From Aestuariimicrobium kwangyangense DSM 21549 (lineage in GTDB: Bacteria > Actinomycetota > Actinomycetes > Propionibacteriales > Propionibacteriaceae), in assembly GCF_000421525.1 (NCBI RefSeq), contig NZ_ATXE01000001.1, positions 1-64,000 of the forward strand: a stretch of DNA of 64,000 bases, written 5' to 3'. This document shows, in pieces, positions 1,956-51,133 of this stretch. The notes under the pieces are model-generated. The model saw only the letters and a program-made list of their open reading frames with translations, ran no database searches and was not told where the DNA came from. The position numbers and the translations under genes were made by a program. The first letter of the stretch is position 1, and each line of letters starts with the position of its first letter.

Positions 1956-2029
1956 GTCCAGAATTGGTCGCGGATGGCCGTCCGGTCCCGCTTCGAGGGG
2001 TCCTCACGCCGATTGGGCCATTTCTGGAC
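1956..2029. repeat. Inverted-end intergenic element 1 (74 bp)
   Basis: The left end is GTCCAGAATTGG and the right end, read on the other strand, is GTCCAGAAATGG. The 50-bp interior is unlike other copies. It lies between the DUF4177 gene start and ponA2 (divergent). Confidence 0.9.
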
Positions 2030-2075
2030 CGCCGCTGCCCGGCCCAGCGGTTCCGGGATTGCCAGAACGGTCACG

Positions 2076-2081
2076 TACTCT
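2076..2081 (+). promoter_or_regulatory. -10 hexamer of ponA2 (leaderless)
   Basis: TACTCT is followed by GGGGCC and then ATG at 2088. The 6-nt spacing predicts a leaderless transcript. The same GGGGCC-ATG arrangement occurs at the YbjQ-like gene. Confidence 0.5.
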
Positions 2082-2087
2082 GGGGCC

Positions 2088-4526
2088 ATGAGTGCAACCA
2101 AGGCGAGCAAGGCATATGCCCTGGCGATGTTCGCGGCCGTCAGCGTGCTGTGTGGTCTGCTGACCGCCGGGCTGGCCGTGCCGTACGTCGCGATGGCCGG
2201 AGGGGTGGCCAAGGCCGGGGCGAACAGCCTCGAAGACCTGCCCGCCGCACTCGACATCCCGCCGCAGTCCGAGGTCTCGCGGGTGCTGATGGCCAATGGT
2301 GAGGTGCTCGCCACCTTCTACGACCAGAACCGCGAGTACGTCGCGATGTCGAAGATCCACCCCTACATGCAGGAGGCGCAGGTCGCCATCGAGGACCACC
2401 GGTTCTTCGAGCACGGCGCCATCGACCTGCAGGGGACGCTGCGCGCGTTCGTCCGCAACTCCACCGGCGGGGCGACTCAGGGCGGTTCAACCCTGACCCA
2501 GCAATACGTCAAGCAGGTGCTGGTGCAGGACGCTCAGAACAACAACGACGAGGAGGCCATGCGCGAGGCGCAGGCCCAGACCGTCAGCCGCAAGGTGCGA
2601 GAGCTGCGTTACGCCATCGCCCTCGAGAAGAGCCTCGGCCCGAACGCGAAGAAGATCATCCTCGAGCGGTACCTCAACATCGCCTACTACGGCGACGGCG
2701 CCTACGGCGTCCAGGCCGCCTCGAAAAGGTTCTTCAACACCACCGCCGACAAGCTGACGTTGGCCCAGGCCGCCATGCTGGCCGGGCTCGTCCAGAACCC
2801 CAACGCCACCAACCCCCGTCTCTACCCGCAGGCGGCGATGAACCGCCGCAACGTCGTGCTGCAGCGCATGGCCGACCTCGGAGTGGTCACCCAGGCGGAG
2901 GCAGATGCCGCGAAGAAGTCCGTCTTCGAGCCCGCCAAGGTGCAGCCGGCACCCAACGGCTGCATCAGCTCACCCTTCCCGCACGTCTGTGACTACGTGC
3001 GTCGCGTGCTGCTGTCGGACGCGATGCCCTCCTTGGGCAAGACCGCCGACGAGCGCGACCGCAACCTCAAGCGCGGCGGGCTCACCATCCAGACCCTGAT
3101 CGACCCGAAGACCCAACGCGCCGCCCAGAGCGCCATCAGCGACCTCGTCTCCCCCACCGATCCGGTCATCTCCACCTCGGTGCTCGTGCAGCCCCGCTCC
3201 GGCCTGATCGTGGCCATGGCGCAGTCGCGGCCCAAGATGGGAACCGGACGAGGGGAGACCTTCCTCAACTACAACGTCGAGAAGTCGATGGGCGACGCCT
3301 CCGGCTTCCAGGGCGGATCGACGTTCAAGGCCTTCGGCATCGCGGCTGCGCTCGAGAAGGGCATGACCCCGAACACCAAGATGCTCGCCAAGAGCACCGT
3401 CGACATGACGGGCGTCTCCTTCATGAGCTGCCAGGGCATGATCCGCCAGATCCAGCCCTACAAAGTGAGCAACTCGGTCTCCGGCTACGGAAACCGCCAG
3501 CTCACACTCGTCCAGGCGGCGCAGGGCTCGGTCAACACCTTCTTCGTTCCGCTGGCCGCCCAGGTCGGCAACTGTGCCGTCACCCAGATGGCCGATCGGG
3601 CCGGCGCCAAACTGGCCAATGGTGAGCCCATGACCACCCAGTCGGCGAACCTGTCGTTCATCCTCGGTTCGGCCGAGGTCACTCCGATGTCGATGGCCCA
3701 AGCGTATGCCACCTTCGCCAACCGCGGGGTGCGATGCAACCCCCTCATCCTGAAGTCCGTCACCACCAAGGCGGGCAAGTCGTTGGGCGTTCCCGCTGCG
3801 AAGTGCCAGAAGGTGATGGAGGCCTCGATCGCCGACGGCACCAACTACGTGCTCTCGAAGGTGATGGAGTACCCGGGGACCGGCTACCGGGCGCGGATCC
3901 CTGGCGATTACCCCCAGGCGGGCAAGACGGGTACGACCGAGTCGAACGAGGCGGTGTGGTTCGCCGGCTACACCCCTGAGATGGCTGGTATCGCCATGAT
4001 CTCGGTCGACAAGGGGACGAGTTACTGGGCCAACCGGAAACGCTCGTTGAAGGGCATCCGACTGCCGAGCGGTACCTACCTCGAGGGGTCCGGTTCGGGC
4101 GACGCAGGCCGCATCTACAAGGTGGCCATGGCCGAGGCGCTGAAGGGCAAACCCAAGACGAAGTTCGTGGCACCCACCGACGAGGTGCTCAACGGCAAGG
4201 AGGTGCAGATCCCCGACCTGACCGGTCTCACCCTGCAGGAGGCCGAGGACGCCGTCCGCAAGGTGGGCCTGAACCCGGTCGAGCGCTACCAGTACGACTA
4301 CCGCTCGGTGGGCACGTGGATCGACACCTACCCGACCGGCAAGACTCGGGTGGGCCAGCCGGTCTACTTCGTGCTCTCGAGTGGCCCCCGGCCCCAGCCG
4401 AAACCCCAGCCCAAGCCGACTGCCACGGCCACGTCGTCCAGTAGCGCGTCGAAGCCTCCGTCGAGCAGCAAGCCGACTGCCACGGCCACGGCGACGGCCA
4501 GCAAGCCGGGCAAGAAGAAGCCCTGA
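2088..4526 (+). CDS. ponA2: Bifunctional class A penicillin-binding protein with PASTA domain
   Basis: Membrane-anchored peptidoglycan polymerase/transpeptidase of 812 aa. It has one N-terminal transmembrane segment (about 10-38) and a GT51 glycosyltransferase domain (EDHRFFEHG with E102, and GGSTLTQQ). The transpeptidase has STFK (S411), SVN and KTGT (K613), followed by one PASTA domain (about 705-770) and a Pro/Lys/Thr/Ser/Ala-rich tail. The start at 2088 follows a -10 box by 6 nt; upstream frame extension runs through an intergenic repeat and is rejected. The downstream phosphoesterase overlaps its stop, the same ponA2-phosphoesterase order as mycobacteria. Confidence 0.93.
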   Translation: MSATKASKAYALAMFAAVSVLCGLLTAGLAVPYVAMAGGVAKAGANSLEDLPAALDIPPQSEVSRVLMANGEVLATFYDQNREYVAMSKIHPYMQEAQVAIEDHRFFEHGAIDLQGTLRAFVRNSTGGATQGGSTLTQQYVKQVLVQDAQNNNDEEAMREAQAQTVSRKVRELRYAIALEKSLGPNAKKIILERYLNIAYYGDGAYGVQAASKRFFNTTADKLTLAQAAMLAGLVQNPNATNPRLYPQAAMNRRNVVLQRMADLGVVTQAEADAAKKSVFEPAKVQPAPNGCISSPFPHVCDYVRRVLLSDAMPSLGKTADERDRNLKRGGLTIQTLIDPKTQRAAQSAISDLVSPTDPVISTSVLVQPRSGLIVAMAQSRPKMGTGRGETFLNYNVEKSMGDASGFQGGSTFKAFGIAAALEKGMTPNTKMLAKSTVDMTGVSFMSCQGMIRQIQPYKVSNSVSGYGNRQLTLVQAAQGSVNTFFVPLAAQVGNCAVTQMADRAGAKLANGEPMTTQSANLSFILGSAEVTPMSMAQAYATFANRGVRCNPLILKSVTTKAGKSLGVPAAKCQKVMEASIADGTNYVLSKVMEYPGTGYRARIPGDYPQAGKTGTTESNEAVWFAGYTPEMAGIAMISVDKGTSYWANRKRSLKGIRLPSGTYLEGSGSGDAGRIYKVAMAEALKGKPKTKFVAPTDEVLNGKEVQIPDLTGLTLQEAEDAVRKVGLNPVERYQYDYRSVGTWIDTYPTGKTRVGQPVYFVLSSGPRPQPKPQPKPTATATSSSSASKPPSSSKPTATATATASKPGKKKP

Positions 4527-49609: not shown

Positions 49610-49637
49610 GGGGCGCCCACCTGCTGGTGGGCGCCCC
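49610..49637. terminator. Strong bidirectional hairpin between thiamine-binding gene and rpf
   Basis: GGGGCGCCCACC (49610-49621) pairs perfectly with GGTGGGCGCCCC (49626-49637) around TGCT. GTTACTGTC follows on the plus side. It separates convergent genes. Confidence 0.8.
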
Positions 49638-49661
49638 GTTACTGTCGACGGGTCGGTCGGC

Positions 49662-50870
49662 TCAGCCGATGCCGAGCTTGGCGGTGCAGGCGGGCCATGC
49701 ACCCCAGCCCTGGCTGGCCTGGACCTTGGTGGCCACGGCGATCTGGGCCTCACGGCTGGCCAGGTCAGCGCGGGAGGCGTAGGCGCCACCCCCGTAGGCG
49801 AGCCAGGTCGACGAGGTGAACTGCAGGCCACCGTAGAAGCCGTTGCCGGTGTTGATGTGCCAGTTGCCGCCGGCCTCGCACTGCGCCAGGCGGTCCCAGA
49901 CGCTACCCGAGGGCACCGAGCTGGCGGCCTTCTTCGTCGTGGTCGCCGGTGAGCTGGTCGTCCGCGAGGTGGTGGATGCAGGGGCGGGGGCCGGGGCCTT
50001 GGTCCCGACCTTGACGATCTGGTTCAGGGGCTTGACGACCTTCTGGTCGTTCAGCTGGTCGGCGAACTGCTTGCCATCGCTGGTCCAGCGGGTGCGCCAG
50101 TTGGTGATCGATCCGTCCTTGCCCTGCTGCACGACCTTGGTCTTGCCCTGGGCGAGGGTGGGGTCGTTGACCTTGACGACGCTGAAGGGAACCTTGGCGC
50201 TCTTGGTGTAGGCGACCTTGGCCACGTCGGCGAAGGTGATCACCTGTCCCTCGGTGAGCTCACTCGAGGTGTCGGCCGAGACCTTGTCGTAGGAGTCCAC
50301 GGAGATGTTGGCGGCCTTGAGAGCGTCAGCGACGGTTCCCACGACCTCGACCTTGACGTCACCCTTCGCGGTGGAGATCGTGACCGACTTGGCGGTGTCC
50401 ACCGACACGGTCAGACCCTGGCGACCCAGCGGGGTCGAACGGTTGACCGAGACCTGGTCCTTGGGGTCGAGCAGGGCGAACTGGGCCAGCGCCTGGTCGA
50501 GGGAGGTGGCGGTCGTCCACCTGGTGGTGGTCTTGCCGTCGATGGTGAGGGTCACGGGACGTCCGTACTTCACGGAGATCTCCAGGCCGTCCGAGACCTT
50601 GGTGTCGAGGGAGGGCTGCACCACGTCGTGCTGGGACAGGGTGATTCCCTGAGCGGCGAGGGCGTCACGCACATCCTTGGCCCGGACGTCGGCGGTGCTG
50701 GTCGCACCCTCGATGTCGAAGGTGACCGAGTCAGTGGCGTAGGCCCTGGAGATGCCGACACCGCCGAGGGCAGTACCGGCTGCGAGCACGGTGGCGAGCG
50801 CAACCTTGGCGCCAATGGGGAACTTCACGCGGGACCTCTTCTTGGAAAGATTCGGGGACGGCTCGGTCAC
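49662..50870 (-). CDS. rpf: Resuscitation-promoting factor (DUF348-G5-Rpf)
   Basis: Secreted peptidoglycan hydrolase of 402 aa. A basic N-terminus (KKRSR) and signal/anchor helix (about 18-40) are followed by DUF348 repeats, a G5 domain (about 205-285, [10 protein letters not shown]) and a Thr/Ser/Ala linker. The C-terminal Rpf lysozyme-like domain shows [25 protein letters not shown] with the catalytic Glu. GTG at 50870 is preferred because it includes the basic n-region and lies after TAGGGT; GTG at 50828 is an alternative. It cleaves the wall for growth and revival from dormancy. Confidence 0.93.
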
Positions 50871-51058
50871 CCGAGCAGGTCCTACCCTAACCTCTTGTTG
50901 AGAGAATCCCAAAGAAATCCTGAGAGTAACCCCCGAATGGGTGAGCCGATTGGACGCCACGCCGAGGTCGGGGAACGTTCCGTGACTTCTCTCCACGCCC
51001 CACTGCTCGCCGCTCTCCAGCCATCGCGACACCCGGCTGACCGGGCCGCCGGGCCGCG

Positions 51059-51133
51059 GTCCAGAAACGGACCCAAACCGCTCGGAACCAGACGAGACAG
51101 GGCCCCAGGGCGAGATCGGGTCCGTTTCTGGAC
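51059..51133. repeat. Inverted-end intergenic element 12 (75 bp)
   Basis: Both ends are GTCCAGAAACGG, a T-to-C change in both arms that keeps the inverted symmetry. It lies between rpf (start) and copA (end), both minus. Confidence 0.92.

Follow-up and report, generated by a model that had tools for sequence, protein, structure and literature searches.

A confined array of paired-arm intergenic elements in Aestuariimicrobium kwangyangense and its possible role as a regional chromosome mark

According to a previous study, repetitive extragenic palindrome (REP) doublets arranged head to head, known as REPINs, have conserved ends in inverted orientation that tend to one spacing, with a spacer that is conserved less well than the ends (PMC3116915). 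Correia elements of Neisseria were described, in the part of the source at hand, as short inverted-repeat elements whose core can bind the bending protein IHF (PMC2649163). Another kind of repeated sequence is matS, a 13-bp site with 23 repeats in an 800-kb domain (PMC3330122, seen in excerpt). Here we describe an array of 74-75 bp elements, each consisting of two inverted arms around a variable interior, in Aestuariimicrobium kwangyangense DSM 21549. Twelve copies lie in the first 64,000 bp of contig NZ_ATXE01000001.1 (C1), hereafter the window, and all known copies are confined to a single segment of the chromosome. No description of this array was found in our searches of the open-licence literature.

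Geometry and composition of the array

The genome searched comprised 2,990,149 bases in five contigs, and window coordinates are those of the start of C1. The pair pattern GTCCAGAANNGN{35,65}CNNTTCTGGAC identified 14 paired-arm elements in the entire genome, all located at C1:1956-77142, while the reversed pattern, used as control, identified none; C4 and all other contigs apart from C1 carry no copy. A preliminary description, made from the window alone, had listed twelve copies, and each was recovered at its exact coordinates, letter for letter. Two more 75-bp copies lie beyond the window, at C1:67053-67127 and C1:77068-77142. Twelve of the 14 copies are 75 bp long and two are 74 bp, so that the spacing peak noticed in the window is upheld across the genome. 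Confinement of all 14 to one 75-kb arc has a chance of about 2e-20 under a uniform placement model. The spacings inside the segment fit uniform placement (coefficient of variation 0.69; probability of a value that low 0.11), and a bell-shaped copy density around 35 kb, which had been considered, was dropped because the spacings are compatible with such placement.

Read inward, both ends of every copy start with GTCCAGAA, as had been reported, but the full symmetrised arm is corrected here to KGTCCAGAAWYGGMCCCRA. GTCCAGAA and one later G are invariant in 28/28 arms, and the single arm is itself near-palindromic (GGTCCA-GAAW-TGGMCC). In a genome-wide half-site search allowing up to 2 mismatches, about 100 of 424 places were listed, with one strand sense per contig. 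Among the places listed, all eight perfect ones are array arms, and the 19 with one mismatch include five array arms and 14 places elsewhere; at none of the latter does GTCCAGAA continue with A, G or T and then YG. The solitary arm core GTCCAGAA[AGT][CT]G was likewise absent from both strands of 920 kb of the genome's own DNA, where the best arm-matrix score outside the array was 11.2 bits, compared with 19.8-32.6 bits for array arms. Neither a longer element nor a transposase gene sharing the array ends was found among the listed half-site places or in the 920 kb. The two arms of one copy do not covary, with 84.5% standard pairs against 84.8% after shuffling and no excess in five measures; they vary independently, suggesting that each arm is read as duplex DNA and not as a hairpin.

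The interiors had been regarded as lacking any shared core, which does not hold: they contain a weak dyad-symmetric centre (about CCGAWTCGG) together with phased A/T bases. Among the twelve 75-bp copies, interior identity is 35.6% against 29.9% in shuffled sequences, a difference of about 9 standard deviations, while no two copies have an interior in common and the best-matching pair agrees at 21 of 38-39 positions. Identity is 0.356 in the forward and 0.356 in the reverse orientation, compared with 0.70/0.40 for a repeat with conserved interior in a relative (six copies), indicating that the interiors have a centrally symmetric signal in common and not a residue of copying. Both the weak/strong base-pair part (z 6.8) and the G/C letter part (z 6.6) contribute to this signal, and in a leave-one-out analysis the centre profile exceeded the random-DNA mean in 12/12 copies (p < 0.05 in nine of them; mean z 2.1). 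The possibility that the interiors are decayed copies of one sequence was rejected, since the orientation-optimised similarity gain was 73.5 against 57.3 +- 9.7 (maximum 81) in 40 shuffles, which is not significant, and the equality of forward and reverse identity also rules it out. The interiors thus do not align as decayed copies, a result that the preliminary description had named as decisive.

A/T bases are phased to the dyad in 14/14 copies, with a period of 9.5-10 bp and z of 6-7. After trimming 16 bp from each end, z was 6.8 at 9.5 bp, and periods of 8 and 12 bp gave little or no signal. When arms and centre were masked, the phasing remained at z 4.1-4.4 and was positive in 13 or 14 of the 14 copies, and with 19 bp trimmed per end and the centre masked it was positive in 13/14 (z 4.4). 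None of 3000 sets of natural windows matched its strength. Phased A/T bases are typical of a bent or wrapped DNA site.

The array may be a regional chromosome mark, made of paired-arm sites held by a protein and kept by the host; this is the reading we favour, although our confidence in it falls a little short of even. Each copy would be a dyad-symmetric double-stranded DNA site with two 16-19 bp arms at a fixed 74-75 bp, between which lie a weak central palindrome and A/T patches at every helical turn. One dimeric or tetrameric protein would hold both arms in synapsis, with the interior bent or wrapped and the A/T patches on its inner face, and the remaining interior letters would be free to drift. 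The fixed length, the independent duplex arms, the symmetric centre and the A/T phasing point to one such complex across a bent interior as the likely mechanism, for which the helical phasing is independent support. The earlier proposal of a two-site element read at both ends stands as far as its fixed geometry is concerned (spacing in 14/14 copies, interiors that are not copies of each other), while the reading protein is predicted from sequence. Near-random interiors beside an invariant GTCCAGAA suggest that each copy has long been under selection where it stands; together with the strict clustering, this speaks for a host array and against a transposon population that is still active. The 14 sites might load or anchor a nucleoprotein complex as the regional mark. 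Their probable origin lies in mobile paired-arm elements, belonging to a class that occurs in several genomes of the family; a mobile origin is favoured by the multi-family, species-specific nature of this class and by the gained DNA described below.

Paired-arm families in related genomes

The array profile was searched in 1.17 Mb of relatives' DNA, with E values from a rough calibration, and gave one suggestive match (E 0.018), in the same-genus genome G001. This element measures 80 bp and lies about 1.4 kb before the ortholog of cydA; its arms (GACCCAGWAAGTGTCCCCCAG) differ from those of the array yet are comparable to them, and its centre reads CCCCGAATCAGGGG. In another 380 kb of G001 the best E value was 0.089. 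When inverted arms of 14 bp, with no more than 1 mismatch and an outer length of 60-100 bp, were sought de novo, many were found; among them was a second family, B, in the 920 kb of own DNA. Its arms read CAATCGTGCSGATCGTGTG, and it is exactly 85 bp long in 4/4 copies, at C2:37209-37293, C3:204392-204476, C4:19472-19556 and C4:111789-111873 (L075, L080, L081, L174). Within each family B arm an ATCGTG-like sequence occurs twice, with about one turn between the two, the interiors are about half alike, and extra partial arms adjoin the copy on C2. In another relative, G004, a family with arms GTGCGCATATCACTAGCTGGAG is 78 bp long in 5/5 copies (the fifth at 171233; the count leaves out a related copy at 96505), and its interiors are 43% alike. 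Phasing at 10 bp was present in both, in 4/4 copies of family B (z 4.3) and 5/5 of the 78-bp family (z 4.5).

Outside the array (family A), the scan yielded 56 intergenic and 83 coding dyads. The intergenic ones formed 23 clusters, of which 20 had enough interior, and with the centre masked the phasing was positive in 19 of these (t 7.4 at 10 bp), compared with 17/35 flanking control windows. Coding dyads (n 82) showed no phasing (z 0.9-1.1 at 10 bp). Four genomes, two of them belonging to the same genus, supplied the cluster representatives; grouping by 9-mers in common is crude and puts dissimilar elements together, and our heuristic gene calls labelled some paired-arm family copies as coding, so that they dropped from the intergenic set. 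Several of these families have conserved or nearly fully palindromic interiors. The occurrence of the same phasing in families with unrelated arms supports the host-site reading.

It is possible, though we consider it doubtful as a whole, that intergenic elements of about 55-100 bp in Propionibacteriaceae genomes form a class not described before, defined by its build and not by its sequence: the two arms match, the length is fixed within each family, and A/T bases between the arms recur about every 10 bp in phase with the dyad. The arms would be replaced wholesale between species, and here one family would mark a 75-kb segment like an address, read by a wrapping protein.

Other repeats were observed in the same genomes. 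A third family of A. kwangyangense, with GATCACCACSGTGG arms, is present at C1:97681, C2:234008 and C4:139914; it measures 63 bp from GATCACCA to its mate in 3/3 copies, which are nearly full hairpins with GACCAACC inner stems. Two 77-bp dyads (2/2) with similar arms CGATCCRAARCCGTGC lie at C1:248756 and C2:331113. A 480-kb stretch of G004 from C1:2751501 (L116-L125, L047-L050, L126-L135) contains several repeat families. Among them, the 78-bp family GTGCGCAT..CTAGCTGGAG has matched changes in both arms and one apparent hybrid copy (172375), and others measure 64 bp (GCAGCGCC), 54 bp (CTCCCAACACGCCG) and about 68-72 bp (GCTTTGCGTCTCC). G001 carries paired-arm elements at L087:8306, L106:16725, L152:1432, L107:12494 and L113:3383 and 4409, with a common inner arm, (T)CCCCCAG or TTCCCCAG, and differing outer arms; one family of three is at 66 bp.

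Genomic setting of the segment

The elements, given here without strand, occupy five divergent, one convergent and eight co-oriented gaps by our gene calls, in agreement with the earlier remark that they occur between genes of every relative orientation; this placement without regard to gene direction supports the host-site reading. The first 74-bp copy (1956..2029) separates a RidA/YjgF-like gene (-) from a penicillin-binding protein gene (+), and the second (7228..7301) a glycine-transporter-type gene (-) from the (+) gene before fhaA. The other divergent gaps are those of 24542..24616, between open reading frame (ORF) 23565-24494 (-) and a TetR gene (+), 32324..32398, between MFS (-) and aldo-keto reductase (+) genes, and 49094..49168, between ThuA-like (-) and thiamine-binding protein (+) genes. 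The convergent gap holds 29164..29238, between ABC transporter (+) and Gfo-Idh-MocA (-) genes. Co-oriented neighbours are a DUF881 gene and a trpG-type amidotransferase gene (-) at 16500..16574, YbjQ-like and alcohol dehydrogenase genes (+) at 20919..20993, an MTES_1575-like gene and an M81 peptidase gene (-) at 35055..35129, M81 peptidase and BlaI-type repressor genes (-) at 36796..36870, and Rpf-like transglycosylase and heavy-metal E1-E2 ATPase genes (-) at 51059..51133. The copy at 41778..41852 lies behind cydAB, where two ABC genes in the cydD/cydC position meet. All ten of these copies from 16500 onward are 75 bp long.

All copies had been called noncoding. None of the 14 overlaps the final gene calls, and of the 75-bp windows in the segment 4.8% are fully noncoding; the statement is nevertheless partly a judgement, because the calls are our own heuristic and starts were moved or dubious ORFs dropped at 6/14 copies. 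The copies at 1956, 7228, 16500, 24542, 32324 and 77068 overlapped initial ORF calls, and that at 7228 falls within a long call (6488-7741) whose start was shifted.

Based on 68 distinct ORFs scanned with Pfam, which are not every gene, the segment resembles ordinary core chromosome. It encodes a penicillin-binding protein, tRNA-Pro, FhaA, an FHA protein, a PP2C phosphatase, a RodA/FtsW-type protein, a penicillin-binding transpeptidase and a PASTA kinase, as well as a TrpG-type protein, a class II tRNA synthetase, cytochrome bd with two ABC genes, LUD-domain proteins, an Rpf-type protein, a heavy-metal ATPase and DnaB. The MTES_1575-like gene at 34093-34992, whose MTES_1575/AbiEi-like product matches both below Pfam's cut-off, was considered as a nuclease cognate to the array and rejected, because relatives occur in 151/197 family genomes, often several in each.

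A DnaA domain is encoded at C1:238652, placing the array about 161-237 kb from dnaA, to one side. C4 probably precedes C1, as a relative's DNA aligns to both the end of C4 and the start of C1. With TGTTTCACGTGAAACA, which we take to be the parS consensus, as query and up to 2 mismatches allowed, just two near-canonical sites were found, C1:232127 and C1:233070 (1 mismatch each), and none in the array; to our knowledge, two parS sites are few for an actinobacterium. To the right of the array, C1:100000-107000 (L013) has lower G+C (0.62 at 100-105 kb) and poorly coding-like ORFs, and is possibly an island.

Competing readings and comparison with known systems

The pair pattern occurs in 1/37 relatives and 1/198 family genomes, the positive genome in both cases being that of A. 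kwangyangense itself; the 197 other genomes of Propionibacteriaceae have none. A scan of 84,980 species genomes, from which own-genome records may be left out, gave three stretches with one pair each, two of them metagenome-assembled records titled Deltaproteobacteria and Desulfobulbaceae and one Anaeromyxobacter. A scan of viral contigs gave three contigs, again with one pair each. We read these single pairs as chance.

For insertion history, gap lengths were compared with relatives at 15848/16634, 40109/41877 (G001b, G004, G012), 49662/51164 and 1776/1974, which cover 4/14 element gaps. The overall test of the gap table was not used, because it contained spurious ABC-transporter paralogue rows (differences near 1870-1960) and duplicated G001 stretches. 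The trpG gap holding 16500 is 119, 133 and 137 bp longer than in three relatives, and at the cyd ABC junction, which the element at 41778 occupies together with further DNA, the excess is 194, 212 and 221 bp. The gap between the rpf-type and metal ATPase genes (51059) differs by +251 bp from G001 and by -130 bp from G004, and the gap at 1956 by just +26 bp from G001; the latter two values argue against clean insertion. Gaps without an element differ by a median of +6 bp, yet some gained +80 to +380 bp. By these comparisons, some elements lie in gained DNA, though not as clean 75-bp insertions.

An imperfect direct repeat (18/21) flanks the copy at 41778 (window 41756-41886) and contains the gene-start ATGACCC, as if the gene-start region had been doubled. 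Against natural windows its p was 0.002 with 60-bp flanks and 0.015 with 150-bp flanks, uncorrected for 14 tests. A weaker repeat around the trpG copy (16475-16486 / 16611-16622) gave p 0.003 in a shuffle test, which was not upheld against natural windows (p 0.06 and 0.44, not significant). The idea that such repeats are target duplications was set aside; the other 12 copies were not significant, and the repeats serve as a lead only. Directly at the element ends, 12/14 copies have no exact flanking repeat of at least 2 bp, and two have one of 2 bp.

The strongest competitor of the host mark is taken first: the elements could form a long-established population of non-autonomous mobile DNA resembling REPINs or MITEs (miniature inverted-repeat transposable elements), with the cluster produced by local hopping. 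We regard this as a serious but tentative alternative. A transposase that has to pair ends just about 60 bp apart would by itself hold the length to a set number of helical turns and make it an advantage for the interior to bend. The two readings use the same physical picture. The gained DNA at the cyd junction and in the trpG gap, the fact that the two cyd ABC genes overlap in G001, the multi-family, species-specific class and the direct repeat around 41778 speak for mobility, as do the inverted conserved ends, favoured spacing (71 bp for GI REPINs) and less conserved spacer that the available part of the REPIN study describes (PMC3116915). Against it stand the lack of any Y1 transposase domain found in the genome, of copy pairs with a common interior, of decayed or single arms in 920 kb, of a longer element with the same ends in the places searched, and of end duplications above 2 bp. 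All 14 copies also lie within 75 kb, while REPIN doublets, as that part of the study states, are randomly distributed in extragenic space (PMC3116915).

Several observations weigh against the host mark. The pair pattern is absent from G001 (90% complete), where the two ABC genes behind cydAB overlap by ATGA with no element at their junction; the lack of both the pattern and the junction element suggests that any function of the array is not conserved in the genus. Location in gained DNA also fits mobility. The 85-bp and 78-bp families look dispersed and not clustered, and in most copies of the latter the two arms match each other better than other copies' arms, which suggests a fold-back or copying mechanism there. 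Finally, no binding protein was found for the array, and binding and bending are deduced from the sequence.

The sites might alternatively bind a local transcription regulator that loops 60 bp, in a clustered regulon, which we consider improbable. The two-site geometry with helical phase, the position of several copies about 11-60 bp from a start codon (own gene calls) and local regulators of CRP, TetR, BlaI, MarR and helix-turn-helix types agree with it; however, neighbouring genes have no obvious common pathway, one copy has convergent neighbours, another sits at a junction within an operon, and there are none in the genome outside the 75 kb. A transcribed stem-loop, terminator or processing site is very improbable and was largely refuted by the absence of compensatory changes between the arms. 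The arms could pair, and the copy at 29164, the only one with a strongly self-complementary interior, folds far better than shuffles (RNA z -6.1), but the other 13 interiors fold near the shuffled level (RNA z -2.0 to +0.4), placement is both divergent and convergent, and the sole Rfam match in the window at the gathering threshold is a tRNA. Invertible segments, with the arms as recombinase crossover sites and a flipping interior, are hardly credible in spite of the inverted ends around a variable interior, as the intra-operon and convergent copies offer nothing obvious to switch, no recombinase was seen among the 68 Pfam-scanned ORFs, and an interior of about 40-50 bp leaves little room for a recombinase synapse.

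Two features go beyond the preliminary description, namely the confinement to a single 75-kb segment and the existence elsewhere of families with the same build and unrelated arms. If the array is a host site, it would represent a new way to mark a chromosome region, in which a two-armed bent site replaces a short single motif, and it would be a ready bait (two arms, phase-sensitive) for finding its protein. If it is mobile DNA, it would be a REP-like population without a REP-associated tyrosine transposase (RAYT), whose bending constraint between the ends is visible in the sequence. The helical-phase test finds such elements without shared letters, so that related hidden classes become searchable in other bacteria.

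The preliminary description had set the elements apart from MITEs and REPs. This stands for MITEs, whose copies share their interior and have target-site duplications at the ends, whereas the interiors here agree at 35.6% against 29.9% by chance, equally in both orientations, and flanking repeats do not exceed 2 bp. The flat contrast with REPs fails: according to the available parts of two studies, REPINs are likewise intergenic, have conserved inverted ends, prefer one spacing and conserve the spacer less well (PMC3116915; PMC3733652), and the array arm is itself near-palindromic. The array differs from REPINs in that its 14 copies are packed into 75 kb, solitary ends are missing from the 920 kb, the arms show no covariation and the interior is helically phased, and no Y1 (RAYT-type) transposase was found with it (PF01797 had no match at E <= 0.001 in the genome, while control matches were obtained in 5/14 known genomes). 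Correia elements are longer and dispersed. They have a conserved core structure in the part of the source available (PMC2649163), in contrast to the near-random interior letters of the array.

Integron attC cores end in GTTRRRY. The array ends read GTCCAGA instead, with core-like neighbours in both orientations; an integron integrase was not searched for. As with matS/MatP and parS/ParB, many copies of one site are confined to a chromosome region, but the array site consists of two arms at a fixed distance and not of one short site, and the near-canonical parS sites lie apart at C1:232-233 kb, the parS consensus not being found in the array. In P1 plasmid parS, the same protein bridges two arms over a bent centre within a similar total length; that is a single plasmid site acting with IHF, and its arms are not a simple inverted repeat. 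None of these systems fits all the tested features: REPINs are closest in build, matS arrays in regional confinement, and P1 parS in the bridging of two arms over a bend.

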